Part shown: piece by piece, positions 11,146-38,216 of the stretch | How the letters are laid out: every line of letters starts with the position of its first letter | Position numbering within the stretch: the stretch's first letter is position 1 | Source of the DNA: Rhodoflexus caldus | GTDB taxonomy: Bacteria; Bacteroidota; Bacteroidia; Cytophagales; Thermoflexibacteraceae | Assembly: GCF_021206925.1 (NCBI RefSeq) | Contig: NZ_JAJPRF010000007.1 | Location: 1-64,000 of the forward strand | Direction of reading: 5' to 3' | DNA: 64,000 nucleotides | Notes under the pieces: model-generated | Database searches by the model: none | The model's input: only the letters and a program-made list of their open reading frames with translations | Told to the model about the DNA's origin: nothing | Translations under genes and position numbers: made by a program

Positions 11146-11170
11146 AAGTTCGTTGTTCGGTTTTTATTGC

Positions 11171-11198
11171 TTAATACCCGACAAACGCCATGCGTTCC
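11171..11198 (-). promoter_or_regulatory. ECF sigma promoter candidate, site 6
   Basis: Reading the - strand, GGAACGCAT is followed by a 12-bp spacer and GTATTAA. The -10 matches the other five sites exactly. The -35 keeps GGAACG but has CAT in place of TTT. It lies upstream of the hypothetical gene 10474-11145. Confidence 0.5.
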
Positions 11199-11222
11199 CG
11201 CTCATTCCAAAAAAATTCGGTG

Positions 11223-19328: not shown

Positions 19329-19378
19329 CGTCGCAGACGCTAACAGCGCTTTACACGAAAACAACGTTCTAAATTGCA

Positions 19379-19470
19379 CGCGAATTTTGCGGAAAAATCT
19401 TGGAAAAATTTAATTCGGTTTTGTGTTGCACCTGTATTACAGGTCATTACCTGCCCCTACAAATTTACCC
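19379..19470 (+). repeat. dispersed intergenic repeat, copy A
   Basis: The segment shares CGCGAATTT, ATCTTGGAAAAA, a TTAA-rich stretch, GGTTTTG(T/C)GTTGCACCTGTA and a final CCTGCCCCTAC-type end with 38281-38390. An internal palindrome ACCTGTA-T-TACAGGT is present. It looks like a small non-coding repeat family (MITE- or REP-like), with two copies in this window. Confidence 0.55.
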
Positions 19471-19709
19471 GCATCGGAAAAATACAATTCGCAGAATCAC
19501 ATTTTCGTGCAAGCGGTGTCGTTTTGATTTTTTTACACAAAGCACACTGATTTTCAATTGAATAGCAAATAATTCGCGTTAAACTGCGCAATTGATTAAA
19601 AGAACAGCACCACCGTCAAACCGACATCTCGGCGCAAAATACCCTGCAAGGCAGTTGTTAGCTGTCATCAAACCTCAATCAAGCCAACTTCCCGCAAAAA
19701 GGCATTGTG

Positions 19710-19743
19710 TTTGGCGGCGGCTTGGGCGGTCGGTTATATTTGC
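19710..19743 (+). promoter_or_regulatory. orphan + strand promoter
   Basis: TTTG (19710-19713), a 21-bp spacer and TATATTTGC (19735-19743) form an exact match to the Bacteroidota -33/-7 pattern. No + strand gene follows. Transcription would start near 19749 and run antisense into the gene 19821-20273. A tiny frame starting MKTALK (19745-19795) begins too close to the start site to be convincing. Confidence 0.5.
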
Positions 19744-19820
19744 GATGAAAACTGCCCTGAAATGTTTTTTACAGTCTCTACACTCTCCTCATTAATTTAG
19801 CAGACAACTGCTCACTGCTG

Positions 19821-20273
19821 TTATGCAGGCTTTATCTCAATACCCCATTCCGTCAATATTTTTAAGACCGTTTTATCGGTTTGCTCATAGTAGGCTTTGT
19901 TGAGCGATTCATTTACCCGCTCATCTATCTGTTCCACAGGAATTTGCATATTTTGCCGTTTCAGGGTAGCGATAAAAACTTCTTTGAGTTTAGCGCCGAC
20001 CATCCGGCGCACACGCTCGCAGTTGTATATCACATCGCGGAAACTGTCTTCCCAAAGAATTTGATTATCTGCGACATTCACAATGCGCAAGCTGCTCAGG
20101 TAGGTTACACCGATACCTTGGGCAATGCCTTCTTCTACACGAATATTTCCTATTTCGCGCTCGCCGGTATAAACAGTGAAACCGGACATCAGATGCGCGG
20201 CCGCAGTAACGCGCAGACCACGTGGGTCAATGATAGTGACAGCAGGTTGGTTATTATTTTGAACAATCAGCAT
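19821..20273 (-). CDS. hypothetical protein, paralogue of its upstream neighbour
   Basis: The 150-residue protein has no signal peptide. Its N-terminal two thirds are beta-rich (VTIIDPRGLRVTAAAHL), followed by a helical tail LKEVFIATLKRQNMQIPVEQIDERVNESL. That tail has the same pattern as the tail of the protein at 20306-20740 (AKRQKIQVNRAQIENEVRTRLD), so the two are probably diverged duplicates. The genes are 32 bp apart and share the ECF-like promoter at 20768-20796. Function unknown; placement next to a sigma/anti-sigma pair suggests a role in the same response. Confidence 0.65.
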   Translation of the reverse strand: MLIVQNNNQPAVTIIDPRGLRVTAAAHLMSGFTVYTGEREIGNIRVEEGIAQGIGVTYLSSLRIVNVADNQILWEDSFRDVIYNCERVRRMVGAKLKEVFIATLKRQNMQIPVEQIDERVNESLNKAYYEQTDKTVLKILTEWGIEIKPA

Positions 20274-20305
20274 GTTTTTTTCGGGTTTAAGGTTGGGGAA
20301 GATGA

Positions 20306-20740
20306 TTATTTCAGTCTTTGGGTTGCATCCAGGCGGGTACGCACTTCGTTTTCTATCTGCGCACGATTTACCTGAATTTTTTGCCTCTTAGCGGCATCCA
20401 TGATAGCCTCGGTGAGCATCTCTGCAGCTTCATGCGCAATAGCTTCTTCCGAATAGACACGGTAATGAAAGCTGCGCTCGGCAATCAGTTGATTATTGCG
20501 CGTGTAAATTTTCAGCCCGTTCAGAAAGGTGTATTTCCAGCCTTGTCCAATGTCTTCTTTGATAACAAAATCGTTGGTGAGGGAAATGGCAGCGAAGTAG
20601 GTATTGCCTGCGTTGCTTGTATAGCCTTCGGTAAGCAGTTTTTTGCCATCGGCAGAAACACTGAGGCGGGTACCATCAGGCAAAATAACTTTAAAGAGTG
20701 CGTTCATTTGAGAAACGTTTGCAAGGGCTGAGGTTGTCAT
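20306..20740 (-). CDS. hypothetical protein, first gene of an ECF-controlled pair
   Basis: The 144-residue cytosolic protein is beta-rich at the start (ALFKVILPDGTRLSVSADGKKLL, FVIKEDIGQGWKYTFLNGLKIYT) with a helical tail (AKRQKIQVNRAQIENEVRTRL) like that of the next gene. Phrases such as LNGLKIYTRNNQLIAERSF and its neighbour's YLSSLRIVNVADNQILWEDSF align over the middle too, supporting duplication. An ECF promoter match ends 28 bp before the ATG. No known domain is recognised. Confidence 0.65.
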   Translation of the reverse strand: MTTSALANVSQMNALFKVILPDGTRLSVSADGKKLLTEGYTSNAGNTYFAAISLTNDFVIKEDIGQGWKYTFLNGLKIYTRNNQLIAERSFHYRVYSEEAIAHEAAEMLTEAIMDAAKRQKIQVNRAQIENEVRTRLDATQRLK

Positions 20741-20767
20741 ATCTTCTGATGTTTAGATGTTTGAAGA

Positions 20768-20796
20768 TTAATACCCTGCGTTTTGCAAACGTCTCC
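20768..20796 (-). promoter_or_regulatory. ECF sigma promoter candidate, site 3
   Basis: On the - strand, GGAGACGTTT, a 12-bp spacer and GTATTAA lie upstream of the paralogue pair and directly downstream of the sigma/anti-sigma genes. It matches the other ECF-like sites in both boxes and spacing. Confidence 0.7.
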
Positions 20797-20814
20797 TTAT
20801 GAACTGAATAAAAA

Positions 20815-21483
20815 TTATTCTAAGGCTTCAGGTTTTGGGGTGTACCGCTTCAGTGCGTATTTTTTCCCGCGGAAAGTCAGGAAGTAAGTATCGTTTTGGG
20901 TGCGATCGTAGGTCAGAAAAAGCCCCAGCGACTGCTGAAAAGCACTGTCTTTCAGTTGCGTATCATCGGCTATAGGCACAAAAACTTGCAGCGTATCTCT
21001 GAAAAGATAGGTAGCGGCAGGGGCATCGGCAGGTGCTGCGGTCAGCCACAAAGGAATGAGCTGTTGTGCGGAGTCCACACCTGCAAAGCCCATACCCGTA
21101 TTTTCCCGTGATTGAATGGTTTGCTGCGGAATCTGTAAAAGTTCCTGTGCAGGTTTTTTCGTTTGTGCCAGTTGCGGTTGTTCCTGCTTATTCCATTGCC
21201 AATAGGCAGCAATACCTGCCGCCAGTACAACAGCCGCCGCCGCTGCATAGCGAATGGTTACGGTAAGTACATTTTGCCGTTTTATTTCTTTGTCATAAGC
21301 CGCGAATCGTTTTTTGCGATGTTCGCGGGTGAGTGCGGCATCTACTGCCCGATGAGCAGCCACATAAGCCGCCAGTTCGGCATCGGTTTGGAGCCTTGCC
21401 TGAAAATTTTTGCGTTCGCTTTCGCTTAACTCGTTTGCCAGATAGCGCTCTACCAGCAAGGTGTCGTTGTCATTCAGTTCCAT
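20815..21483 (-). CDS. membrane anti-sigma factor
   Basis: The 222-residue protein is encoded one base after the ECF sigma gene stop. The N-terminal 70 residues are helical and charged (LLVERYLANELSESERKNFQARLQTD), the typical start of Bacteroidota anti-sigma domains. A single membrane helix (about 76-94) follows, then a roughly 125-residue periplasmic part. No zinc-binding HxxxCxxC is visible. It should hold the sigma factor at the inner membrane until an envelope signal releases it. The periplasmic part is rich in Gln, Ala and Thr and is not recognised. Confidence 0.8.
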   Translation of the reverse strand: MELNDNDTLLVERYLANELSESERKNFQARLQTDAELAAYVAAHRAVDAALTREHRKKRFAAYDKEIKRQNVLTVTIRYAAAAAVVLAAGIAAYWQWNKQEQPQLAQTKKPAQELLQIPQQTIQSRENTGMGFAGVDSAQQLIPLWLTAAPADAPAATYLFRDTLQVFVPIADDTQLKDSAFQQSLGLFLTYDRTQNDTYFLTFRGKKYALKRYTPKPEALE

Positions 21484-21484
21484 G

Positions 21485-22111
21485 TCAGTATTGTAGTTTT
21501 TTGTTCCACGCCGGAATCACTATTTCGCGCAGTTTTTCGCGACATTTATGAACAGCTTTTTTCAATGCTTCGCCGCTGCTTTTACCAAATTGGACTGCCA
21601 GTTCGTCGGAAGTCCCCCATTTGCGTTCATACCATGCATCTAACAATTGCCGGCACTGCTCCCCGATTTTAGAAAGCCCCAGCCTGAGCACTTGCAGTTG
21701 CTCTTCCTGCCATTCGGAGTCATTCTCTGCTGCGCCCAGAAACTTTTCCAAAATACCTGTCGGCGCATCGCCATCTTCATCATTGCCGCCATCGGCAACA
21801 ATAGGCACGGTCGGATTTTCTTTGCGCACCAGCTTGTACCATTTCTTGGTTGCAATGCCCATCAGGTAGGTGCTCATCTTTGCCTCCAACTGAAAGTTGG
21901 CATCGCTGATTTTTTCCATTGCAACAATCATCGTTTCCTGATACAAGTCTTCTGCCTGTATTTCCGTAGTGCCTTTTTGCATGAGGTAGCGTACCACTTT
22001 GTTCTTGTACTTTTTATATAAATAAGCCTCAGCCTTGGGGTCATGCCGTTGTATGGCACGCACCAGTGCATGTTCATCGGCAAAGGGGTTGCCCAACGAA
22101 AGTATTTTCAT
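21485..22111 (-). CDS. ECF-type RNA polymerase sigma factor
   Basis: The 208-residue protein has region 2 (KAEAYLYKKYKNKVVRYLM, then AEDLYQETMIVAMEKI), an acidic linker (GGNDEDGDAP) and region 4 with a helix-turn-helix (LLDAWYERKWGTSDELAVQFGKSSGEALKKAVHKCREKL). It directs RNA polymerase to ECF promoters. A promoter of the same type as five other sites in the window lies immediately upstream (22115-22142), implying autoregulation. That promoter's expected start is at or next to the ATG, so the message may be leaderless. The anti-sigma gene follows. Confidence 0.9.
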   Translation of the reverse strand: MKILSLGNPFADEHALVRAIQRHDPKAEAYLYKKYKNKVVRYLMQKGTTEIQAEDLYQETMIVAMEKISDANFQLEAKMSTYLMGIATKKWYKLVRKENPTVPIVADGGNDEDGDAPTGILEKFLGAAENDSEWQEEQLQVLRLGLSKIGEQCRQLLDAWYERKWGTSDELAVQFGKSSGEALKKAVHKCREKLREIVIPAWNKKLQY

Positions 22112-22114
22112 GTG

Positions 22115-22142
22115 TATATACCGTGATGATTGTAAACGTTAC
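22115..22142 (-). promoter_or_regulatory. ECF sigma promoter candidate, site 4 (autoregulatory)
   Basis: On the - strand, AACGTTT (22134-22140) preceded by GGT, a 12-bp spacer and GTATATA (22115-22121) lie just upstream of the sigma gene. The -10 differs at one position from the GTATTAA of the other sites. Confidence 0.6.
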
Positions 22143-22159
22143 CTGTTTATTGAAAAAAA

Positions 22160-23749
22160 TTATTCTTCCGCAACATACCACTGTCTGAGCACTTTCCCGG
22201 AGTCGTCCAGTTCTGCCAGCAGGCCACACGCGGGAAAATACCAGCACTTGCTGCCCAATGCACGGGGATTGCCATGGGTTTTTATCAGGCTGTTACCGGT
22301 AGTTGGTGCATTGGTTTGTTTATACCAGATATATATTTTCTTTTCGGCAGTCTGTATCACAAGCGGTGAATTTTCCGCTTCGGTTTTCGCGCGGTATTCC
22401 ATGCGGACAAACAGTGGCGAATCGCTGATGTTACGTGCCAGTAGCTGTTGAGTTGCAATCAGCGGCTCTTTGGGAATGACAGGCGGCTGACAATTCTTTT
22501 TGAATGATTCATCCTGATTCAACCACTGCCGAAGGGGTGCTGTCATGCGATAAACAACAGAAGAGCGGCTTTGAAAAACTTCCTGATTGGCTTTGCCGTA
22601 CCAGATGCCTGTTTTAGTAACTTGCTCAAACAGAGCCGCAGCTTCATCATTGCGTCCAACTGTTGCATAGGCAATTGCTCCCATCGTCTGCCATGCCTGC
22701 TGATTCTGTAAAAACATGCCTTCCATTTCTTTTGTCCTGCCGATAACTGCTTCGGGATTACCTGATAACAGCCTCACAGCCATCCAGTTTAATAAAGCAG
22801 GCTGGTAGTTTTTATCTATAGCCAATGCTTTATCCAAATAGGTTATGCAACGATTTAGCAGTAGTTGCCGTGCGCCTGTAGCTGTTTCGCCGCGTTCTCT
22901 TGGTTTACGCAGTCGCACATCGCTTTCTACAGGCAAATAGTAAGGCATTTCCTGATTGTTAGTTTGTTCGATGACTTGCCACAGAAGCGCTACAGCTGCG
23001 TTGTTATAGGCTTCTTTGGGGCCTTTCAGACCGACTGCTTCATTCCGTTTAATGACGTACAAAAAAGCCTGTTCAGCTTGCGGATAGCTCCCTGTTGCCA
23101 TCAGCAGTAACCCTGTGCGAAACGCTGCAATGAGTTCCTGTGCTTCTGTCTGACTTTCCCGAGCAGTAGCTATGCGCTCCTGTTTGGGCGGATAGCCTTC
23201 TAAACGGTCCGGCAACCGATAGTGTATGTAAATTTCACTCATCAGACCTTCGCAAATGTTATAGGGCTGATAGCCTGCAAGGTAAGCATAAAAAGCGCCC
23301 AGATAATCTGCCTGTTTTTCTGCTGCGGCATTAGGACTGCTGCTATTGGGTTCTTTGGCAAAGCGTTGTGGCTTACCAAATTGCGCAATCCACTGATGAT
23401 TGGCATACAAGTGTACCAATTCGTGCCCTAAGAGCATGGCGAGCGCATCTTGCACATGATTACTGAATTTATTCAGGCACAAGTCATAAAGCGACTCCTG
23501 CATATCTATCACCGCTTGTCCATGGCGGTAGTTGAGCTCCAGAATCAGCTTGCTGTCGGGGTCAGCTGCATGAATACGCAATAAGGGAGCAACGCCATCG
23601 CCGGGGGGCTGCCCGAAGACCTCAATCAGCCGATTTAAAACTTGTCGGGCTGATTTCACCTTCGGGCTGGTGTCAGGCAGCAGTCGCTGTGCCCGCAAAG
23701 GTACCACAGCAAATATTAGCAGTAGTATGCAGAAGCAACAACGAATCAT
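22160..23749 (-). CDS. exported M48-like metallopeptidase with TPR-like region
   Basis: The 529-residue protein has a Sec signal peptide ending VVPLRAQ. The zincin motif is HELVH (His109-Glu110...His113) in LLGHELVHLYAN, and the third ligand is probably Glu144 in AAAEKQADYLGAF, as in M48 peptidases with their ExxxD pattern. The rest (about 190-480) is helical with TPR-like units (TGSYPQAEQAFLYVI, YLDKALAIDKNYQPALLNWMAVRL). A periplasmic protease is inferred. It lies between the sigma gene and the pseudo-protease, with its own unidentified promoter. Confidence 0.75.
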   Translation of the reverse strand: MIRCCFCILLLIFAVVPLRAQRLLPDTSPKVKSARQVLNRLIEVFGQPPGDGVAPLLRIHAADPDSKLILELNYRHGQAVIDMQESLYDLCLNKFSNHVQDALAMLLGHELVHLYANHQWIAQFGKPQRFAKEPNSSSPNAAAEKQADYLGAFYAYLAGYQPYNICEGLMSEIYIHYRLPDRLEGYPPKQERIATARESQTEAQELIAAFRTGLLLMATGSYPQAEQAFLYVIKRNEAVGLKGPKEAYNNAAVALLWQVIEQTNNQEMPYYLPVESDVRLRKPRERGETATGARQLLLNRCITYLDKALAIDKNYQPALLNWMAVRLLSGNPEAVIGRTKEMEGMFLQNQQAWQTMGAIAYATVGRNDEAAALFEQVTKTGIWYGKANQEVFQSRSSVVYRMTAPLRQWLNQDESFKKNCQPPVIPKEPLIATQQLLARNISDSPLFVRMEYRAKTEAENSPLVIQTAEKKIYIWYKQTNAPTTGNSLIKTHGNPRALGSKCWYFPACGLLAELDDSGKVLRQWYVAEE

Positions 23750-23833
23750 ATCAGGAGGTATTAAAACACTGGATTAACGCAAAAAAAGCGCCTTTGGTCA
23801 TTTTATGGTACAAAAAATTTATCCCTTGTGATA

Positions 23834-23861
23834 GGAACGTTTGCAGAAGGTCGGGTATTAA
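23834..23861 (+). promoter_or_regulatory. ECF sigma promoter candidate, site 1
   Basis: GGAACGTTT (23834-23842), a 12-bp spacer and GTATTAA (23855-23861) lie 18 bp before the ATG of the pseudo-protease gene. This is the best match to the deduced consensus. Confidence 0.75.
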
Positions 23862-23879
23862 ACCGCAAAAGCAAACCTT

Positions 23880-25574
23880 ATGAAACAAATAGTTCGCAAC
23901 ATGATATGGCTGATAATCATTTGCTTATATGCAAATACAGCCGCTACGCAGGTAATGCCTGACAAAATCATTCAGGAATCGGCGAAAGCCATTGTCAAAA
24001 TCAGGATGTATTCAAAAACAGGTAAAATCCGAATTTTTACCGGCTTTTTTATTGATGAAAGCGGCACCTGTATGACAGATCTTTATAATCTGGAGAACGC
24101 ACTGTGGGGTAGTGTCATCACCGAAGACGGCAGTGAGTATGAGATAGATCGCATCACTGCGATTAGTCGCTCGTATAATGCGGCAAAGTTTACGCTCAAA
24201 AATACAAAGGGTAGAAAGTTTCCTTTCCTCAATATGGCAGCAGATCCCCGCAACGGCTATCGTTATGCCACTTTTATTCACTCATCTGAGGAAAAAGCTG
24301 CGATTTATTACGAAGGTATTATTCATAACCGCTTTATGAATCGCTACACAGACCATGAGTCCATGCACATATCTGCCTTGCCCCGTGAGCGCGAAGGATG
24401 GGGCGTACCACTTCTGAATGCCCGAGGAGAGGTAATAGGCATGGTAAGCTACATAGAAGATGAAAAAGATTTCATCGCGGAATACATAGCTCCGCCCGAC
24501 AGCTGGGAAAAGACAGACCGCACAGTGATTGCCATGAATGAAGATAAAATTGTGCCATTGTTGCGTATCCCTGAAACAGAACCAAACCTGATTTATTATG
24601 CCATAGAGCTAACCCCAGAGACTACTTACGTATATGCGGCTTATACCCATACATGGATATATTATGCTAAGCAGTTTTTCCTTTGGAATGAGCGGGACCG
24701 TCAGCAGTTTGGCTTCTATATCAAAGACCGGAACACGGGGCGTATGTTTTACCTGAAGGAATCAACATTGGGCAGTAATGGTAAAGGGACGGAGGTAGAG
24801 CCCTGTATGACGCAATACTTCCGTTTGACTTTCCCGCCGCTGCCGCCCGATGTGCAGCAGATTGACCTCATAGAGGGTTCATTGCAGGAGTGGAATCTTT
24901 CGCAAATAGAGTTGCAGGCAAATCACCCGATTACCATGCGCTCTGTGGCCGAAAAAGAACACGCGCTCAGATACTATCTGCAAAAAATCAAAGTTGGAAA
25001 GAGTAATTATTACATGCAAAAGTTCAAACAGACCTTTGAGACGTATCCCGCGCAGCAAGAAATGGCACTTAACGGTCAGGCTTATGCCATGTTGTTCAAC
25101 GGTGAATCAATAGATGATGTGGTCAGTATGCTGGAAAAATATACGCAGACTGCTAAACCTACTAATCTGACATGGCTCAATCTGTATCGCTTGTATCGCT
25201 GGCAGGAAAGTTATGACAAGGCGCTTACAGCCATCAATCGGGTAATTGAACTTACGCAGGGCGCACGCTTGCAGGAGTGGTATGCCGAAAGAGCAAGTCT
25301 GTACGAATATTTAAATGATTATGATGCCGCTTATAAAGATTGGGAAACGGCCTCCAAAGTATTCTATGTTGCATCGCAATACTCCCCCTGGATGTTTACT
25401 GCCTACAAAATGGCATGTGCCTATGAAGCAGGCAAGGCAGCACTCGCCAAAACCCAATATCAGGAATTGCAAAAGCAGTTGCGCGAATGGTCAGAAGCCA
25501 ACAACAACGCACAGATAGGGGCAGGGTGGCAGGAATACATTGACCAATATGCACGGAAAATGGGGTTTAAATAA
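23880..25574 (+). CDS. trypsin-like pseudo-protease with C-terminal TPRs
   Basis: The 564-residue exported protein has a signal peptide followed by a trypsin/HtrA-like fold (about 30-200). The expected His falls at Tyr69 (TDLYNLEN instead of TNxHV), the Asp at Asn100 (YNAAKFTL) and the Ser at Trp174 (EGWGVPLL instead of GNSGGPL). The flanking fold markers (TGFFIDESG, ARGEVIGMV) are intact, so it is an inactive relative. A beta-rich middle (about 230-360) and TPR-like helices (about 390-560, YDKALTAINRVIELTQG) follow. It likely binds rather than cleaves. ECF site 1 drives it. Confidence 0.75.
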   Translation: MKQIVRNMIWLIIICLYANTAATQVMPDKIIQESAKAIVKIRMYSKTGKIRIFTGFFIDESGTCMTDLYNLENALWGSVITEDGSEYEIDRITAISRSYNAAKFTLKNTKGRKFPFLNMAADPRNGYRYATFIHSSEEKAAIYYEGIIHNRFMNRYTDHESMHISALPREREGWGVPLLNARGEVIGMVSYIEDEKDFIAEYIAPPDSWEKTDRTVIAMNEDKIVPLLRIPETEPNLIYYAIELTPETTYVYAAYTHTWIYYAKQFFLWNERDRQQFGFYIKDRNTGRMFYLKESTLGSNGKGTEVEPCMTQYFRLTFPPLPPDVQQIDLIEGSLQEWNLSQIELQANHPITMRSVAEKEHALRYYLQKIKVGKSNYYMQKFKQTFETYPAQQEMALNGQAYAMLFNGESIDDVVSMLEKYTQTAKPTNLTWLNLYRLYRWQESYDKALTAINRVIELTQGARLQEWYAERASLYEYLNDYDAAYKDWETASKVFYVASQYSPWMFTAYKMACAYEAGKAALAKTQYQELQKQLREWSEANNNAQIGAGWQEYIDQYARKMGFK

Positions 25575-25583
25575 ATTGAGAGC

Positions 25584-25618
25584 GATTGAGGTGGCGAAAA
25601 CCCTTCGCCACCTCAATC
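25584..25618. terminator. bidirectional terminator hairpin
   Basis: A perfect 15-bp stem (GATTGAGGTGGCGAA and its complement) around the 5-base loop AACCC lies between the convergent pseudo-protease and CHAT genes. T-runs are short on both sides. Confidence 0.7.
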
Positions 25619-25628
25619 TTCAATCCCC

Positions 25629-28600
25629 TCACTCACCTACCAGCACAAACGCACCCCAATAATACGGCTCGGGGTGCTTTTGGCGCAGTGCCGCCTGTGC
25701 TTCGTTGAACGCCTGCCGCTTGGGTTTCTTTTCTGCCAACCAACGGCGGTAAAAATCGCTCATCAACTCTTGCGTCGGCTCGTCGGCGACTTTCCAAAGG
25801 CTGTAAATGACCGCCTGCGCACCTGCAATCTGAAATGCCCGATGCAACCCGTACACGCCCTCGCCGTTTTTGCTCACACCCAAGCCCGTTTCACATGCCG
25901 ACAGCACAACCAATTCCGTGCCGTCCAAGCGCAGCGATGCCGCTTCGTAGGCTGTCAAAATGCCGTCGTTCGTGCCGTCGGGGAGGCGCTCGCGGTTGTT
26001 GAGCGTATGCTCTGCTCCTGCCAAGTACAAGCCGCAGCGCAAGTAAGGATTCTCAAACGCACGTTCACCCTGCAAGCCCGACAGCGACAAACGCTCGGAA
26101 TGCCGCTCGGCAACGGCTTCAAAAAATCCGTGCGTGGCAATGTGCAACACTTGCGGCGAACGCAACGCCCGCACCTGAGCTTCGCTTGCTTCGGCTTGTT
26201 GCCATACCCGATGCGCCACGTTTTGACTTGCCATGATGCGGCTGATGTTAGCAACTTCCGCTTTGGTGCCGGGCAACGGACTGATGCTGCCTGCCCGTTC
26301 TAAAGCGCGGTAGGTGGCATAGCCCGAAGCGGCGGCTAACAAACCCTCACTGTTGGCGGCTTTGGGCGCGGCGGCATAGTCAGGGAAGCCGAACAATGCG
26401 GCAGATTGTGTGGCAGGCGCAGCCTTGCGCGGCTGTACCAAGTCGCGCGTTGAGCCGACGATGTGAAGGTCTAAGCGGTCTGCCAAGTAGCCGCCTTGGG
26501 GGTGCGGCAGCGTCAGCAGGTTGATTTGATGAAAAACCCCATCGGGCGAAAGGTACACGGTGCGGAAATTGCCCAAACTGTCTAAGGTTTGCTGAATGGG
26601 CTGCCAGAACAGGCGGTACAGCGAATCAGCGGGCATGGTGCTTTCCTCTTCGGGTTCTACGCCCACGCCGCGCAGAGCAGCCACCGCCGCACGATAGCCT
26701 TGCGTGCCGCGGGCTTCCATCAAATCGCCGTGAGGTAAAATTACTGCCTGCGGTTGTTTCAGTTGCGGGGTCAGTACCAAAGCCGCATAGCGGACGGTAT
26801 CTTTCCACTGTTTATCATACAGGCGAAAACGAACGATTTCCACAGCGGCTTGGTCGGGTTGCAAGCGTTTTTGTACCTCCTGCCAACGGGTAACTTTCAA
26901 CTGATTATCCTTAGCTTTTGCGGCAAGTTGCTTTTCTATCTCGTTGATTTTGATTTCCAAATTGTCAATTGCCTCAATATCCGGCTCGGATGTATTGAGC
27001 ATTTCAAGCCATTTTTGTTTGGCTGATTCCCATGCATCCATGGTTTGCAATAATTTTTCATCGTTGGCAGCCAAAATATTCAACCGAAGTCGGATAGTAC
27101 TTTGCAAAAGAATACCCTTCAGCAGTAAGACATTGTCGTACATGTGTCCCGCAATGGCAGGATTAGCTTTTTTGCGCTTCAGAACAAAGGAACTAAACTT
27201 CTCAAATTCATCGGCAACGGTTGCGAGTAAATTTTCCCGCTCTTTTTCGGAAAGCAGATGTAAAAACTCGCTCAAGTGCTTATAGATAATTTCTTGCGAT
27301 TGCAGCAGCAAAGGCTCTGCTTTCTGATAGGCATCTTCATCGGTATAAGTTGCTGCCGATTGGGATAAAAATTTTGCATAATCCATATGGCTTTCGCCAA
27401 CAGTTGTTCTGTAAATGCCGCCCGCCTGCCGATAAAGTGCTTGAGATTTTACAAAGTCTTTCAATTTGCCTTTCACTCTTGCCCAATTCGTCAACAGGTG
27501 TGCAATTTCGGGGTGATTTTCACCTAAAGTTTGCTTTTGGACTTGGAAAGCCTTTTGCAGCATTTCGTCTGCTTTGGAAAGTTCCCCGCATCTTTCGTAC
27601 AAAGCGGCAGCCTGTATGAGCGAACGTATATAATCAGGGTGACTTTCGCCGAGTACTTCTTTGCGGGTATGCCATACGTGCAGATGCAGTTTTGCCGCTT
27701 CGGGGTTATTTTGCATCTGATACAATTGTGCGATGGCGTATAGAACGTTTAAATATTGAGGATTTTTTTCACCTAAAACTTCTTTTTTGACGATTGCGGC
27801 TTGCTGATAGTTAGCGGCAGCTTTTTTGTAATCCCACAAGTTGACGTACAAGTCGCCTAATCGCTGCAATGTGTTGGCATAATCGATGTGTTTTTCGCCG
27901 AGCAGTTGTTTTTGTATGGCGGCAGTTTGTTCATAGAGCAACGCGGCTTGATGAAAAGCCCCTTGCTTGTGATAGACGGTTGCCATACATTCCAACATTG
28001 CCGCGTAAAGAGGCGATTTTTTACCGAATGTTTTCTCGTGAATTCCGATTGCTTCTTTAACTGTAACAAGTGCTTTGGAATAAGCCGCCATGTCGGTGTA
28101 AAGCAACGCCAATTGATAAAGGGAGGCAACGTAATCCGTGTGATTTTTCCCTAAAACATTTTTGCGGATGTTCAATCCTTGTTGCAGTGCGGGCAACGCT
28201 TTGCCATACTCGCCTTTGATTCGGTAGAGGCTTCCCATGTTTGTCAGCAAGGCGGCAAACTCGGGATGACGCTCGCCTAGGCGGCTTTTTTGCTTATTTA
28301 ACGATTGTTCGTACAACTCAAGTGCGCGATTGTATGCCCCTTGTATTCTGTAAATATCGGCTAATTGTACGGCTATGGATACGGTGAGGGGATGCTCCTC
28401 ACCCGTTTTATTTTTAGAGATTTGATAGGCTTGCTCAAGCAGAGGGCGCGCTTTGTCGTATTGTCCGTTTTTTTGAAAAATTTGTGCCAATCGGGTAATA
28501 CTTCTCTGATAGTCGCGGTGTTCTTCGCCTTGAGAGACTTTTCTGACAGCTACGGCTTGTTCATAGCTCTGCTCGGCTTTTTTAAAATCGCTCATATCCT

Positions 28601-29321
28601 CATAAAGCCCTGCCAAATTTTCCAGAAAATCGGCAAAATCGGGATGGTTTTTATTGGCAAAACCGTTGCGCATGTTAACAGCCGCTATAATCAGGGGCAA
28701 GGCTTTATCGTAATCGCCCATGCTGCGATACAACGCCCCGATTTGGTTCAATACAGCCGCATAGCCGATGTGGCGTTCGCCTAAGGTGATTTTACAGATG
28801 TCTTTTGCCTGTTCAAAACAAGCCATCGCTTTGCGATAATTGCCCATTTTCTGATGTATGCGTCCAATACTCATCAGCGACTGGGCATAAGCCAGATGCT
28901 TTTTCCCGAATTCGTCTTTCCGTATGTCTAACGCTTGTTCTGCCAACGAGAGGGCTTGCGCATACTCTCCTTCCAGCAGGCGAATATTGGCTAATCCACT
29001 GATTACCTGTGCAATAGCTTGCCTGTTAGCGGGCATACGGGTATTTCTGATTTGCAAAACTTTTTGCATAAGCGAATCGGCAAGTGCATAATTATCCATG
29101 CTTTGGTAAATGATGGCGGCATGATACAACGCTACCGCCTGATTTTCCGAGTCGGGAGCAGCCGTTGCTACGGCTTTTTGTGCCGTTGTCAGTGCTTCTT
29201 GAAGCGCTCCTTTCTGATACAAATAAAGCGTTTGGCTGTAGAGTTTGTCCCATTCTGTGGCTTGCTGTGCATAAACAAACGAAACATAAAACAATAAAAT
29301 CAGCGTGATGGCAAATTTCAT
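25629..29321 (-). CDS. exported TPR-CHAT (caspase-like) protein
   Basis: The chosen start is the ATG at 29321 (MKFAITLILL), which gives a Sec signal peptide ending FVYAQ; about 1230 residues. Some 14 tandem 42-residue kinesin-light-chain-type TPRs (LGERHPEFAALLTNMGSLYR-like units) fill residues 30-600. A helical linker follows, then a C-terminal CHAT domain with the caspase-like dyad: His in VLHIATHGFFE and Cys in LSACETGLG (about residue 1143). CHAT proteases are best known in the cytosol; export here suggests a periplasmic role. It converges with the pseudo-protease gene. Confidence 0.9.
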   Translation of the reverse strand: MKFAITLILLFYVSFVYAQQATEWDKLYSQTLYLYQKGALQEALTTAQKAVATAAPDSENQAVALYHAAIIYQSMDNYALADSLMQKVLQIRNTRMPANRQAIAQVISGLANIRLLEGEYAQALSLAEQALDIRKDEFGKKHLAYAQSLMSIGRIHQKMGNYRKAMACFEQAKDICKITLGERHIGYAAVLNQIGALYRSMGDYDKALPLIIAAVNMRNGFANKNHPDFADFLENLAGLYEDMSDFKKAEQSYEQAVAVRKVSQGEEHRDYQRSITRLAQIFQKNGQYDKARPLLEQAYQISKNKTGEEHPLTVSIAVQLADIYRIQGAYNRALELYEQSLNKQKSRLGERHPEFAALLTNMGSLYRIKGEYGKALPALQQGLNIRKNVLGKNHTDYVASLYQLALLYTDMAAYSKALVTVKEAIGIHEKTFGKKSPLYAAMLECMATVYHKQGAFHQAALLYEQTAAIQKQLLGEKHIDYANTLQRLGDLYVNLWDYKKAAANYQQAAIVKKEVLGEKNPQYLNVLYAIAQLYQMQNNPEAAKLHLHVWHTRKEVLGESHPDYIRSLIQAAALYERCGELSKADEMLQKAFQVQKQTLGENHPEIAHLLTNWARVKGKLKDFVKSQALYRQAGGIYRTTVGESHMDYAKFLSQSAATYTDEDAYQKAEPLLLQSQEIIYKHLSEFLHLLSEKERENLLATVADEFEKFSSFVLKRKKANPAIAGHMYDNVLLLKGILLQSTIRLRLNILAANDEKLLQTMDAWESAKQKWLEMLNTSEPDIEAIDNLEIKINEIEKQLAAKAKDNQLKVTRWQEVQKRLQPDQAAVEIVRFRLYDKQWKDTVRYAALVLTPQLKQPQAVILPHGDLMEARGTQGYRAAVAALRGVGVEPEEESTMPADSLYRLFWQPIQQTLDSLGNFRTVYLSPDGVFHQINLLTLPHPQGGYLADRLDLHIVGSTRDLVQPRKAAPATQSAALFGFPDYAAAPKAANSEGLLAAASGYATYRALERAGSISPLPGTKAEVANISRIMASQNVAHRVWQQAEASEAQVRALRSPQVLHIATHGFFEAVAERHSERLSLSGLQGERAFENPYLRCGLYLAGAEHTLNNRERLPDGTNDGILTAYEAASLRLDGTELVVLSACETGLGVSKNGEGVYGLHRAFQIAGAQAVIYSLWKVADEPTQELMSDFYRRWLAEKKPKRQAFNEAQAALRQKHPEPYYWGAFVLVGE

Positions 29322-29446
29322 GGCGGTTTGGCTTATCAATTTATCAAGAATAACGATGCGGCAGGATTAAAATTATTGCTTTCCCGCAAAGGCACAAACA
29401 AAAAATCCTCTTGCAAGGCTTTAAGAAATTTTTTCGGCAATCAGGC

Positions 29447-29473
29447 GGGACGTTTTGCCCGCGACGGTATTAA
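29447..29473 (+). promoter_or_regulatory. ECF sigma promoter candidate, site 5
   Basis: GGGACGTTT (29447-29455), an 11-bp spacer and GTATTAA (29467-29473) lie 90 bp before the beta-barrel gene. The leader between them is G+C-rich with repeated GAAA-containing hairpins. Confidence 0.6.
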
Positions 29474-29562
29474 GCCATAGGACACAACGCCGAAAGTCCC
29501 TAAAAACAGGCAGCGAAAGCCAAAAAGCTGATAGAGTAGGCAAATTTCATTTCATTATTACC

Positions 29563-30312
29563 ATGTACAATTTAAAAAAAGTGTGTTTTATTTTCCTATT
29601 TGCGCTCTATGGCACAATCGCTTGTGCACAAGTAACGCTTATGCCGCGTGTGGGTGGTAGCATGACTCGTCCTGTTTCCAACTATACCGATGATTTTTAT
29701 GTATCCGAAGAACTTAACTTCTCGTGGGGAGCCGGGTTTTCCGCAGGCATGGATATCCTGATTCCGATTTCAGGAGGTTTTTCTGTCCAGCCGGGTATTG
29801 GCATTGCCCGAAAAACAGGTAAAGTATTTTACAAAGGTGTTTCACGCAGCTATACACATACACATGACATCAAAGGAAGTGGTTTTTTCATAGAACCTTC
29901 TGCGCTTTTACGCTTTGATTTAGATGCCGACCAACGCAATTCTTCACTCTATTTTGTGGCAGGACCGACTTTGAGCATTATTGCAGGTGGCAGTGTGGAT
30001 GATAACTACCTTATGGTTACTAATAGAAGTAATCAGATTGTTTTTAGTGAAAATAAGAGTGCCTTAAAAATTACAGGTTTAGAATCTCAGGAAATTGTAC
30101 AGCCTTTGGGACTTTCAGGCATAGTGGGTATAGGTTATCGTCTTTCGCTGGGTGGCATTGCAGCTTTTGCCGATGTGCGCTATCAACATGGTTTGATGAG
30201 CTATGTAAACGGTAAATACTTTCAACAGCAAGACGGTTGGGATTTTCAACCTACCCTGCGTAAAAATACCCTTGCCTTGAATTTTGGTATTGCGCTGCCG
30301 TTGGGTAAATAA
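29563..30312 (+). CDS. outer-membrane beta-barrel-like protein
   Basis: The preferred ATG at 29563 starts a signal peptide ending TIACAQ; 249 residues. The mature part alternates hydrophobic and polar residues in strands separated by Gly-rich turns (SGGFSVQPGIGIARKTG, LSLGGIAAFADVRYQHG) and ends NFGIALPLGK. This is the pattern of 8- to 12-strand porin-like or OmpW/PorT-like barrels of Bacteroidota. It lies behind ECF site 5 and a possible structured leader, and a 15-bp hairpin ends the gene. Confidence 0.75.
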   Translation: MYNLKKVCFIFLFALYGTIACAQVTLMPRVGGSMTRPVSNYTDDFYVSEELNFSWGAGFSAGMDILIPISGGFSVQPGIGIARKTGKVFYKGVSRSYTHTHDIKGSGFFIEPSALLRFDLDADQRNSSLYFVAGPTLSIIAGGSVDDNYLMVTNRSNQIVFSENKSALKITGLESQEIVQPLGLSGIVGIGYRLSLGGIAAFADVRYQHGLMSYVNGKYFQQQDGWDFQPTLRKNTLALNFGIALPLGK

Positions 30313-30316
30313 TCTC

Positions 30317-30368
30317 AATTGGATTGCCGTTGTTAGTATTCCACCACATAACGGCAATCCAATTTTCA
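30317..30368 (+). terminator. terminator after the beta-barrel gene
   Basis: AATTGGATTGCCGTT pairs perfectly with AACGGCAATCCAATT across an 18-base loop, followed by TTTTC. It separates the barrel gene from the frameshifted PPC-domain gene. Confidence 0.6.
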
Positions 30369-30402
30369 TTACTTTTATATTATTCACCAAACTTTAACTC
30401 TG

Positions 30403-31127
30403 ATGAAAAAAATCTGTTAGTATTAGCAGTTTTTGTAGGTCTGAGCTTTGCAGCACAGGCACAAAATGACGGTAAATCGCCCAACGTAGGCGATAAAAAA
30501 GAAATCAATGCCGAAGAATCCGAACAACTCAATCAGCTTGCCATGGCGCAGTCGCTCGCTGTTTATGGCAAAAAGAACAATTTAGTAGAGGCATTGGTTC
30601 TGGCAGCCAAAATGCTTCGCCAAATGCCGGGCTATGACAAACTGGCAGCAGAGAAAAAACCGAAGGCGAAGGAGTAGCTTCTGAAAAAGAAAGCAGTGCC
30701 ATGATTGTATTGGAAAAAGCAGCACTATTGGCAGAAGCCCGCAAAATAGCAGACAAAGACAAAGCGCTCAACGAACTGATTGCAAGCGTAGAAAAAACCC
30801 CCAAGTCGCCGCGGAGCGGTGGGCGGTGCCAAAGTAGCCTATGAGAAGGTATTGGCACTCAGTACAGACACATATGCAGTTCGCTTTACAGGTGGCAGTC
30901 GCGCTTATGTGGCTATCAACGGCGACGGCGATACCGACTTGGATTTGTTTGTCTATGACGAAAACGACAACTTAATTGCCAAAGACGACGACCATTTAGA
31001 CCGTTGCGTGGTAGAGTGGTATCCTAAATGGACGGGGCCTTTTGTGATTAAAGTTAAGAATCTGGGGCGCGTTTACAACAACTATCGGATAGTTACGAAT
31101 GACGACTGTAATCACTTTCTCACGTAA
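30403..31127 (+). pseudogene. PPC-domain exported protein broken by three homopolymer frameshifts
   Basis: An ATG at 30403 is followed by A7. One more A would give MKKNLLVLAVFVGLSFAA, a complete signal peptide, but as read it stops after five codons. The frame carrying the signal peptide is then lost at A6 (30654-30659), a middle segment (about 30659-30790) is open in another frame, and the first frame returns near A6C5 (30792-30802). The last part has a PPC-type domain (DTDLDLFVYDENDNLIAKDD, PFVIKVKNLGRVYNNYRI). With three one-base corrections it encodes one protein of about 240 residues. It may be a decaying gene, phase variation, or sequencing error. Confidence 0.7.
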
Positions 31128-31148
31128 GAGATTAAAAGTCAATTGATT

Positions 31149-31184
31149 AAACCTGACAGGTCTTGAAAGACCTATCAGGTTTTT
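31149..31184 (+). terminator. intrinsic terminator after the PPC-domain gene
   Basis: AAACCTGACAGGTCT and AGACCTATCAGGTTT form a 15-bp stem with one mismatch around a 4-base loop, followed by TTTTTC on the + strand. Confidence 0.75.
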
Positions 31185-31224
31185 CTATAAACCGACGGTT
31201 CGGGATTCAGGATTAAAAAATCCA

Positions 31225-31251
31225 TGAAAAACCCGTATCACCCGTGGGTTT
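31225..31251 (-). terminator. possible terminator of the S9 peptidase gene
   Basis: On the - strand, AAACCC and GGGTTT pair across 11 bases and are followed by a short T-run. It lies 31 bp downstream of the S9 peptidase stop. Confidence 0.4.
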
Positions 31252-31281
31252 GACGCTTTGCTTGGCTCAATTACTTATCCG

Positions 31282-37069: not shown

Positions 37070-37087
37070 ATTTTTTTTCACAAACAG

Positions 37088-37114
37088 GGAACGTTTGAAA
37101 AACTGCGGTATTAA
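37088..37114 (+). promoter_or_regulatory. ECF sigma promoter candidate, site 2
   Basis: GGAACGTTT (37088-37096), an 11-bp spacer and GTATTAA (37108-37114) lie 31 bp before the trypsin-CAP gene. It is identical to site 1 in both boxes, 13 kb away. Confidence 0.75.
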
Positions 37115-37145
37115 ATAGCAGAAAACACTCAATCAAGCGTTCCCT

Positions 37146-38216
37146 ATGAAAAAGTTTCAGCTCATCCTGTTCGTTATCCTGCTGTTGGCAGCCAATGCCT
37201 TTTCCCAAAACCCTGAGGCTGTTTTTAAGAAAGCCATCAAATCTTCTGTCAATGTGATTGGCAAAAACCAGTCCGGTTCAGGGTTCTTTGTGCTGCCTGA
37301 TGTGGTGGCCACCAACTTCCACGTGATTGAAGGCGAAGGCGAAATTGAAATCCATGCCAACGATTCCGAGCAAAAATGGAAGGTAACAGGTGTGGTCGGC
37401 TATGACATTGCTGCCGACTTAGCTCTTTTACAAGTAAACGGCAAAGGTCAGCCGCTTGCCTTGGGCAGCAACCCGCAGGTAGGACAACAGGTGTTCACCA
37501 TTGGCCGACCGCTGGGCCTGTCCGCCACTTTCACCGACGGACTTATCAGCGGTATGCGCAGTTTTGATGATATTGAGCACCTGCAAATCAGCGTACCCAT
37601 TTCATCGGGTAACAGCGGAGGGCCACTGATTAACCTGCAAAATGAGGTAATAGGTGTCATCGTAGGGTCAATGGTACGCGGCCAAAACCTCAACTTTGCC
37701 ATCCATGTCAATCATCTGAAAACCCTTTTGCAGAATCGCTTTAACACACCGATGCCATTAGTTAATCTGCTCAAAGCGATGGTAGTAGAAACGCAGCGCT
37801 CTGCAACAGGCTACACCAACGAGGCCGCCTTTATTGCCGATGTGCTTACCATGTTGAACGATTTCAGAAAAGGCCCGTGGCCAAGTCAATACGGTTTGAG
37901 TGCCTGCAAAAACAACCTGACATGGAACGACTTACTGGCACAGGCGGCACTCTCTACATTAGACAAAGTTAAAGGCGCAGCCCCGATGACGGTAAAAACT
38001 TATGACGGAGAAACCTCTATGCAACGCGCTCTGCTGGCAGGCGTAAAGGCCAATGGTATCCACGAAATGCTTATCCACGGTCATGAAAACATAGAAGATT
38101 GCCTGAATGCATGGATAAAATTCCCGCAATTCCGCAACAAAATTTTAGACCCGCGCATCAGAGAGATAGGTATTGCACGCCAAGGGAAATACTGGTCTAT
38201 GATGCTATTGTATTGA
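37146..38216 (+). CDS. exported trypsin-like (S1C) protease fused to a CAP domain
   Basis: The 356-residue protein has a signal peptide ending NAFSQ. The protease domain (about 25-205) has an intact triad: His59 in TNFHVIEG, Asp91 in AADLALLQV and Ser157 in GNSGGPLIN. There is no PDZ domain. A C-terminal CAP/SCP-like domain (about 222-356) replaces it, with LNDFRKGPWPSQYG, LTWNDLLAQAAL, HGHENIEDCLNAWI and DPRIREIGIARQGKYW as family marks. Its promoter is identical in both boxes to that of the pseudo-protease gene. CAP domains bind ligands or cleave peptides; the role here is unknown. Confidence 0.88.
   Translation: MKKFQLILFVILLLAANAFSQNPEAVFKKAIKSSVNVIGKNQSGSGFFVLPDVVATNFHVIEGEGEIEIHANDSEQKWKVTGVVGYDIAADLALLQVNGKGQPLALGSNPQVGQQVFTIGRPLGLSATFTDGLISGMRSFDDIEHLQISVPISSGNSGGPLINLQNEVIGVIVGSMVRGQNLNFAIHVNHLKTLLQNRFNTPMPLVNLLKAMVVETQRSATGYTNEAAFIADVLTMLNDFRKGPWPSQYGLSACKNNLTWNDLLAQAALSTLDKVKGAAPMTVKTYDGETSMQRALLAGVKANGIHEMLIHGHENIEDCLNAWIKFPQFRNKILDPRIREIGIARQGKYWSMMLLY

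Follow-up and report, generated by a model that had tools for sequence, protein, structure and literature searches.

A trypsin-like protein of Rhodoflexus caldus without a catalytic triad, and its degenerate HtrA-fold relatives in other genomes

Proteases of the HtrA family, such as DegS, DegP, DegQ and HtrA1, carry a catalytic triad and PDZ domains. HtrA-fold proteins that are not proteolytic are already known, MamO of magnetotactic bacteria being one; we know of no TPR and no beta-sandwich in MamO. The MamO study (PMC4794232) describes an HtrA-fold protein repurposed from proteolysis, as is probably true of the protein dealt with here; MamO binds a transition metal, has His, Asp and Thr at the triad positions, and is needed for MamE-dependent processing as a protein, its triad not being required. 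RsgI9 of Clostridium thermocellum (PDB 7sjy) provides a second case: its S1C domain, part of a membrane anti-sigma factor that also has an NTF2 domain, is protease-like and able to bind cellulose, according to PMC12203970. The pseudo-orthocaspases, as covered in those parts of PMC6426788 that concern them, are also bacterial pseudoproteases, some of them TPR-tailed, but their fold is that of caspases. Neither those parts nor the sections at hand of PMC7159879, which treats trypsin-bearing conflict systems, describe a family of catalytically dead trypsin-TPR proteins, and the literature consulted, chiefly openly accessible, yielded nothing on a TPR-linked pseudotrypsin architecture or on a dead form conserved throughout a family.

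The protein at issue, here called the pseudoprotease, is encoded in the 64,000 nucleotides of Rhodoflexus caldus DNA that were analysed (the window; Table 1). A plain family search would label its gene a trypsin-like peptidase, though the normal residues of a serine protease are gone. Of the three frames of 23880-25574, only that of the gene has coding-type codon usage (+0.23 bits per codon; the others score -0.79 and -0.87), and the character of the N-terminus indicates that the product is probably exported. PADLOC, searched for defence systems, gave no match for it at E<=1.

Table 1. Features of the window around the pseudoprotease gene and at the trypsin-CAP gene
Feature	Position	Strand	Basis or remark
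Promoter-like site before 223-aa ORF	11170..11199	-	matrix score 23.5
150-aa gene of sigma operon	19821..20273	-	38% relative in G001
144-aa gene of sigma operon	20306..20740	-	promoter-like site at 20796; 55% relative in G001
Promoter-like site before 144-aa gene	20767..20796	-	matrix score 21.6
Putative anti-sigma factor gene	20815..21483	-	NF052375, E 2e-6, below cut-off; 47% relative beside sigma in G001
ECF sigma factor gene	21485..22111	-	43% relative at G001:C3
Weak site just 5' of sigma gene, possible autoregulation	22114..22143	-	score 14.0, within shuffle range (largest 17.0)
M48-like peptidase with TPR, divergent neighbour	22160..23749	-	M48 19.9 bits vs cut-off 20.3
ECF-sigma-like promoter boxes AGGAACGTTTG-N10-GGTATTAAA, 17 bases 5' of ATG	23833..23862	+	pattern search; putative function
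Pseudoprotease gene	23880..25574	+	ATG start, 564 aa ORF
Probable Sec signal peptide, residues 1-23	23880..23948	+	by eye from sequence; model helix 2-22
Pseudo-trypsin (HtrA/S1C-fold) domain, residues 30-205	23967..24494	+	profile match and structure model
Tyr69, catalytic His position	24084..24086	+	HMM alignment
Asn100, catalytic Asp position	24177..24179	+	HMM alignment
Trp174, catalytic Ser position (Glu172, oxyanion-hole Gly position)	24399..24401 (Trp174)	+	HMM alignment
Beta-sandwich domain with LIEG...WN motif, residues 237-344	24588..24911	+	model and class-genome matches
TPR-like helical solenoid, residues 355-560	24942..25559	+	Pfam and model
TPR-CHAT (caspase-like) gene, convergent neighbour	25629..29321	-	ATG start; TTG-started ORF reaches 29339
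Promoter-like site before outer-membrane barrel gene	29446..29474	+	matrix score 22.5
Same promoter boxes before active-type trypsin-CAP gene	37087..37115	+	pattern and matrix
Trypsin-CAP gene, intact triad H59, D91, S157	37146..38216	+	HMM alignment

That the first domain is HtrA-like had been proposed from the sequence, and profile, Foldseek and superposition all bear this out. Pfam Trypsin_2 scores 24.2 bits on residues 54-188 (E 6e-5), a little short of its 27.6-bit cut-off, and a profile of 15 triad-bearing trypsin domains from related genomes matches residues 30-195 (E 1.2e-15 in a 47-protein set). An AlphaFold2 model, made with an input alignment of 34 window and locus sequences, has block pLDDT values of 92-97 for residues 31-120, 75-84 for 121-150, only 47-57 for 151-170 and 88-91 for 171-190; over the full length, with residues 208-352 unmodelled, mean pLDDT is 62.8 and pTM 0.43. 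Foldseek matches this model to 411 PDB chains at E<=0.001, RsgI9 S1C-NTF2 at the top, followed by chains of HtrA1, DegP and DegS. Superposition with VIA, the aligned ranges of which extend into the low-confidence region past residue 208, gives Z 20.5 for RsgI9 (179 residues, rmsd 2.9), 20.1 for HtrA1, 20.0 for Deg5 and 19.9 for MucD and DegQ. The initial annotation had proposed structure prediction and superposition on DegS as a check on its claim; the result, Z 19.2 over 186 residues of 1sot, is a trypsin-like fold, so that one of the two grounds for refutation named there, a fold of another kind, does not apply. As modelled, then, the N-terminal domain is a double beta-barrel of the chymotrypsin/HtrA (S1C) type. 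The likeness to RsgI9 is one of fold, and the protease domains of DegS, DegP, DegQ and HtrA1 share the fold at Z 19-20.

The catalytic residues are another matter. In an HMM alignment of 46 domains, Y69, N100 and W174 of the pseudoprotease occupy the His, Asp and Ser columns, exactly as claimed at the outset, and E172 stands in the column of the oxyanion-hole Gly (GxSG). Alignment with HtrA from the PDB gives the same triad replacements, the PDB match itself being weak (E 0.83). The triad is intact (HDS) in 23 of the 46 rows and not in the other 23, some of which are partly degenerate: His and Asp are kept in L128 and L131, Ser in L041, L116 and L127, and Asp in nine rows from the families f53 and f77. 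(The Ser region of L073-L077 is unalignable in the HMM alignment, and their Ser status is taken from a MAFFT alignment.) Judged by its sequence, the pseudoprotease thus lacks what marks an active S1 serine protease, the His-Asp-Ser triad and the oxyanion-hole glycine, and we infer that it cannot cleave. Catalysis kept through unusual residues is scarcely credible when neither the glycine nor any triad residue is left and Trp stands in the place of the nucleophile.

The C-terminal half was modelled separately (residues 194-564, 20 sequences). In this second model residues 237-344 form an all-beta domain (block pLDDT 68-94), and a helical solenoid follows at 355-560. The solenoid, together with a Pfam TPR_1 match at residues 468-491 that falls under the cut-off (E 1.8e-4), upholds the earlier assignment of TPR-like helices behind the trypsin domain. 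The beta-sandwich, at about residues 237-344, was absent from that assignment; it links the trypsin and TPR parts and has a LIEG...WNFY signature. At E<=1e-4 it has matches in 23 of 345 genomes of the class, counting the own one; by eye some of them lie beside TPR, OmpA-like or MORN-like parts and others form short stand-alone proteins; in L138 it is fused to an intact trypsin domain. Pfam names no beta-sandwich domain in either of two proteins tested, and Foldseek finds no match for the C-half model at E<=0.001. The VIA rows for that model are mostly TPR chains at Z 10-12, which may reflect common arrangement only. No PDZ domain was found: Pfam at E<=10 gives Trypsin_2 and TPR models only, and where the HtrA family has its PDZ domain the model shows strands only at 237-344, then helices. 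The pseudoprotease therefore differs from DegS, DegP, DegQ and HtrA1 both in having no triad and in having a beta-sandwich and TPR where their PDZ stands.

Since the HtrA barrel is kept, the catalytic residues are all lost and two further domains are present, one of them of a binding type (TPR), the protein is most simply taken to be a binder. Our preferred reading, to which we assign a probability of roughly 0.55, is that it is an exported, catalytically dead HtrA-fold scaffold or adaptor of the cell envelope. Its ligands may be envelope proteins or peptides, because export is likely and because the class of its promoter and its HtrA parentage point the same way. The pseudoprotease would be exported to the periplasm, where peptides, partner proteins or unfolded envelope proteins would lodge in the TPR groove and in what was once the substrate cleft; it would be switched on with an ECF-sigma regulon (discussed below) and form part of an envelope-stress or surface response.

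Whether orthologues also lack the triad, a question raised with the original claim, has a divided answer: close orthologues were not found, and distant relatives are often triad-less (15 of 26 at the class level, 70 of 70 in family f53). The three congeners (G001, G002 and G003) have no match to the pseudoprotease. A search of 148 relatives gave domain-sized matches only, in 6 other genomes, 4 of these to the TPR part, and two genome-contig scans and a plasmid tblastn yielded no close orthologue. A two-row profile brings up very large pseudotrypsin-TPR proteins from further families of the order (any match in 17 of 390 genomes, own included); the seven that were read, L041 among them, are 1374-2253 aa long and none keeps the His. 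With an eight-row profile, 27 of 395 genomes of the class, again counting the own genome, have a match at E<=1e-4. Among the resolved non-own loci, 26 in number, the triad is kept in 11 and missing in 15 (there are 27 non-own loci, of which L130, not resolved by ORF picking, stands outside all counts, and L142, cut by a contig end, is counted intact). Nine of the 15 triad-less proteins come from f53/f77 (556-584 aa) and four from f82 (484-529 aa), the other two being L116 (f45, 443 aa) and L134 (f88, 497 aa). The three f82 proteins read (L118, L122 and L128) have, by eye, a C-terminal half without recognisable TPR.

Family f53 was examined in greater depth. Matches at E<=1e-10, mostly in frames of about 550-620 codons, are present in 134 of its 151 genomes, in 97 of the 107 good genomes and in 28 of 30 genera. 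None of 70 copies examined (L210-L279) has an intact triad: His is kept in 2, Asp in 57 and Ser in 4. These 70 loci comprise 30 returned by the search and 40 picked to spread over genera, and the reading covers 70 of the 134 genomes with a match, leaving out 64 genomes and the weaker second matches. At the His position the residue is most often Ser or Thr (33/70), at the Ser position most often Val or Ile (40/70); an SCP motif is common at the latter in the same copies. The same neighbour genes recur in all six f53 loci read. We take these to be recN, coaBC, dnaQ and dnaN, which would fit Bacteroidaceae. The pseudoprotease gene is set differently, its neighbours being sigma, M48-TPR and CHAT genes and not the recN-coaBC-dnaQ-dnaN group.

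By profile, the nearest solved relative of the f53/f77 family is RsgI9 (E 1.6e-10). Compared with the f53/f77 profile by hhalign, the N-terminal half of the pseudoprotease reaches a probability of 97.7 and the C-terminal half 16.9 over 54 columns, with nothing detectable beyond TPR. The f53/f77 proteins resemble the pseudoprotease in a signal-like start (by eye), a dead trypsin domain and C-terminal TPR; they differ in usually keeping the Asp, in their chromosomal place and in that no counterpart of the beta-sandwich was found in them, hhalign aligning only residues 10-195 of the pseudoprotease. Conservation of the dead form in 134 of 151 f53 genomes implies a selected, non-catalytic job in the envelope, and the near-universal presence of dead proteases in one family suggests that they bind or scaffold instead of cutting. 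This family-wide conservation is in our view a more interesting result than the decoy link first proposed for the window gene. More tentatively, dead HtrA-fold proteins with TPR tails could represent a large group of early origin in this bacterial class, serving the envelope as receptors or adaptors without catalysis, with one branch near-universal in a family and placed beside DNA-metabolism genes; the window protein would then be a divergent offshoot, perhaps horizontally acquired, with an added beta-sandwich and under an ECF-sigma stress regulon.

A block of 11.9 kb around the gene (19378-31266) is missing from the close relative G003, in which the flanks are 90-95% identical and the site is filled by 3.5 kb with a different four-gene cluster, genes that lie on another contig of the own genome. 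This absence, and the restriction of the pseudoprotease to one species among those searched, would suit a gene that has no function, being in decay or newly acquired, a reading that we hold to be very unlikely: the 564-codon frame is intact, codon usage is of the native type and promoter boxes are present, the fold of the first domain is confident, and similarly built relatives are conserved elsewhere. In G001, relatives of the sigma, anti-sigma and two small genes occur together with no pseudoprotease beside them. G015 has M48-TPR, CHAT and sigma relatives, together with an anti-sigma gene recognised by eye, within 18 kb and no pseudoprotease. Adjacency to M48-TPR or CHAT-TPR as a conserved partnership finds no support, the M48-TPR relative and the sigma operon being on different contigs in G001 with no pseudoprotease beside either.

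Trypsin domains do appear to be tied recurrently to sigma circuits in these bacteria, as judged from two arrangements. On contig C2 of the own genome (G000; L048/L209, 2570-4368) a sigma gene is followed by that of a protein with an anti-sigma-like N-terminus (by eye), a TM-like helix and an intact trypsin domain; a similar anti-sigma-like/trypsin protein is encoded in G070 (L083, 6962-8562), next to genes for sigma and TPR-CHAT. In neither trypsin protein, that of L048/L209 or that of L083, does Pfam find an anti-sigma match. The pseudoprotease itself is tied to its sigma circuit by neighbourhood and promoter only. Neither Pfam (E<=10) nor NCBIfam (E<=1) shows an anti-sigma part in it, and its sole TM-type feature is the signal-like N-terminal helix, so that it does not have the make-up of an RsgI9-type protein. 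We therefore regard as quite unlikely a role as ligand sensor, in the manner of the RsgI9 S1C ectodomain, for the adjoining sigma/anti-sigma pair or the TPR-CHAT protease, even though RsgI9 is the top match both by fold and to the f53/f77 profile, sigma and putative anti-sigma genes adjoin, and the trypsin proteins of L048 and L083 stand beside sigma genes. That the sigma operon of G001 does without a neighbouring pseudoprotease also speaks against it.

In a tree of 45 domains (L076 omitted for short coverage) the division between intact and degenerate triads needs 2 changes, against 15.3 in shuffles, none of 500 of which was as low; this agrees with a single origin of the degenerate rows and equally with several. 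The pseudoprotease joins the f53/f77 clade with support of 93/88, on a long branch (1.74) and with an unusual composition, and the program warns that its placement is unsure. The domain of the trypsin-CAP protein falls in another clade, with L136, L138, L132 and L140 (support 98/95). An origin of the pseudoprotease as a recent duplicate of trypsin-CAP is rejected in view of the separate clades and of 24% identity over 182 residues. Trypsin-CAP is kept in all three congeners (55-87% identity), none of which has a match to the pseudoprotease.

The two genes nevertheless share a promoter type. As the initial annotation had noted, the boxes are the same at both genes: GGAACGTTTG and GGTATTAAA precede 23880 as well as 37146, 10 bases apart at the first and 9 at the second, and a search of the window for the joined pattern gives 2 matches vs 0.00 expected in shuffles. 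The boxes (a GAAC-type -35 and a -10) and the one-base freedom of their spacer look like an ECF-sigma promoter, from which the pseudoprotease is probably expressed. A looser pattern has 10 matches in the own genome vs 3 for the reversed control, 8 of the 10 carrying GAACGTTT and GGTATTA; the corresponding figures are 3 vs 1 in G001, 3 vs 4 (no excess) in G002 and 2 vs 0 in G003. Clear downstream genes are a PLD-like gene, one for an exported-looking 169-aa protein with a C14 caspase after it, a GH25 gene, trypsin-CAP and the pseudoprotease gene; to three sites (two on C4, and C9:107580) no such gene could be clearly assigned.

A weight matrix derived from 12 sites, among them the two from the window, finds five sites scoring 21 or more in the window, three of them outside the training set (29446+, 20796- and 11199-). 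At the same score there are none in 655,822 bases of other genera. Another 106,907 bases of the own genome contain 6, every one in a locus retrieved because of the motif, and 172,062 congener bases contain 7, 4 of these in loci retrieved in that way; ten window shuffles, scored on one strand, reach 17.0 at most. Of the congeners, G003 (35.3) and G002 (23.3) retain the trypsin-CAP site, and the matrix finds none at the G001 counterpart. The G001 relative of the 144-aa gene has similar upstream boxes by eye, and there the matrix scan gave none at 11 or more. With eight strong sites in the own genome, the boxes look like the mark of a regulon more than of a private pair, and the motif yields a concrete list of genes that may be co-regulated. 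The sigma factor of the window is a candidate only for the sigma factor of this regulon, its own upstream site (14.0) scoring below 17.0; G003 keeps the trypsin-CAP promoter, yet its sigma relatives are only 27-30% identical to the window sigma.

These findings bear on the proposal that the pseudoprotease acts on the trypsin-CAP protease as decoy, chaperone or allosteric regulator, in the way that MamO serves MamE. Identical boxes, signal-peptide-like starts in both proteins (by eye) and the MamO precedent (PMC4794232) lend it some weight, but six further strong promoter sites exist in the own genome, trypsin-CAP does without a pseudoprotease in 3/3 congeners, the domains are of different clades and 24% identical, and the genes are 13 kb apart. 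We consider the proposal unlikely, and in its narrower form, a private decoy or regulator of the 37146 enzyme, it finds no support, since the congeners keep trypsin-CAP alone, the clades are separate and the promoter is common to other genes; a looser regulatory role may exist. What survives of the original description as an inactive binding relative of HtrA is the inactivity, as read from the loss of the triad, and, probably, the binding.

The own-genome copies of the motif show some further features. Those at G000:C4:322289 and C4:332406 (L105), without a clear downstream gene, have near-identical upstream flanks, perhaps as part of a repeat. On C5 (L106, 7797-13020) there are two regulon-type promoters, one before the PLD-like gene, which is followed by a membrane-protein-like gene, and the second before the 169-aa gene with the C14 caspase; at L086 a protein resembling this 169-aa one precedes a beta-sandwich-TPR gene (by eye). 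The leader of the outer-membrane barrel gene contains, downstream of the 29446 site, a match to the Rfam DUF805b RNA (RF02914, 36.3 bits; 29510-29542, + strand), and over 119 bases this leader shares 83% identity with the one that precedes the caspase operon at G000:C5.
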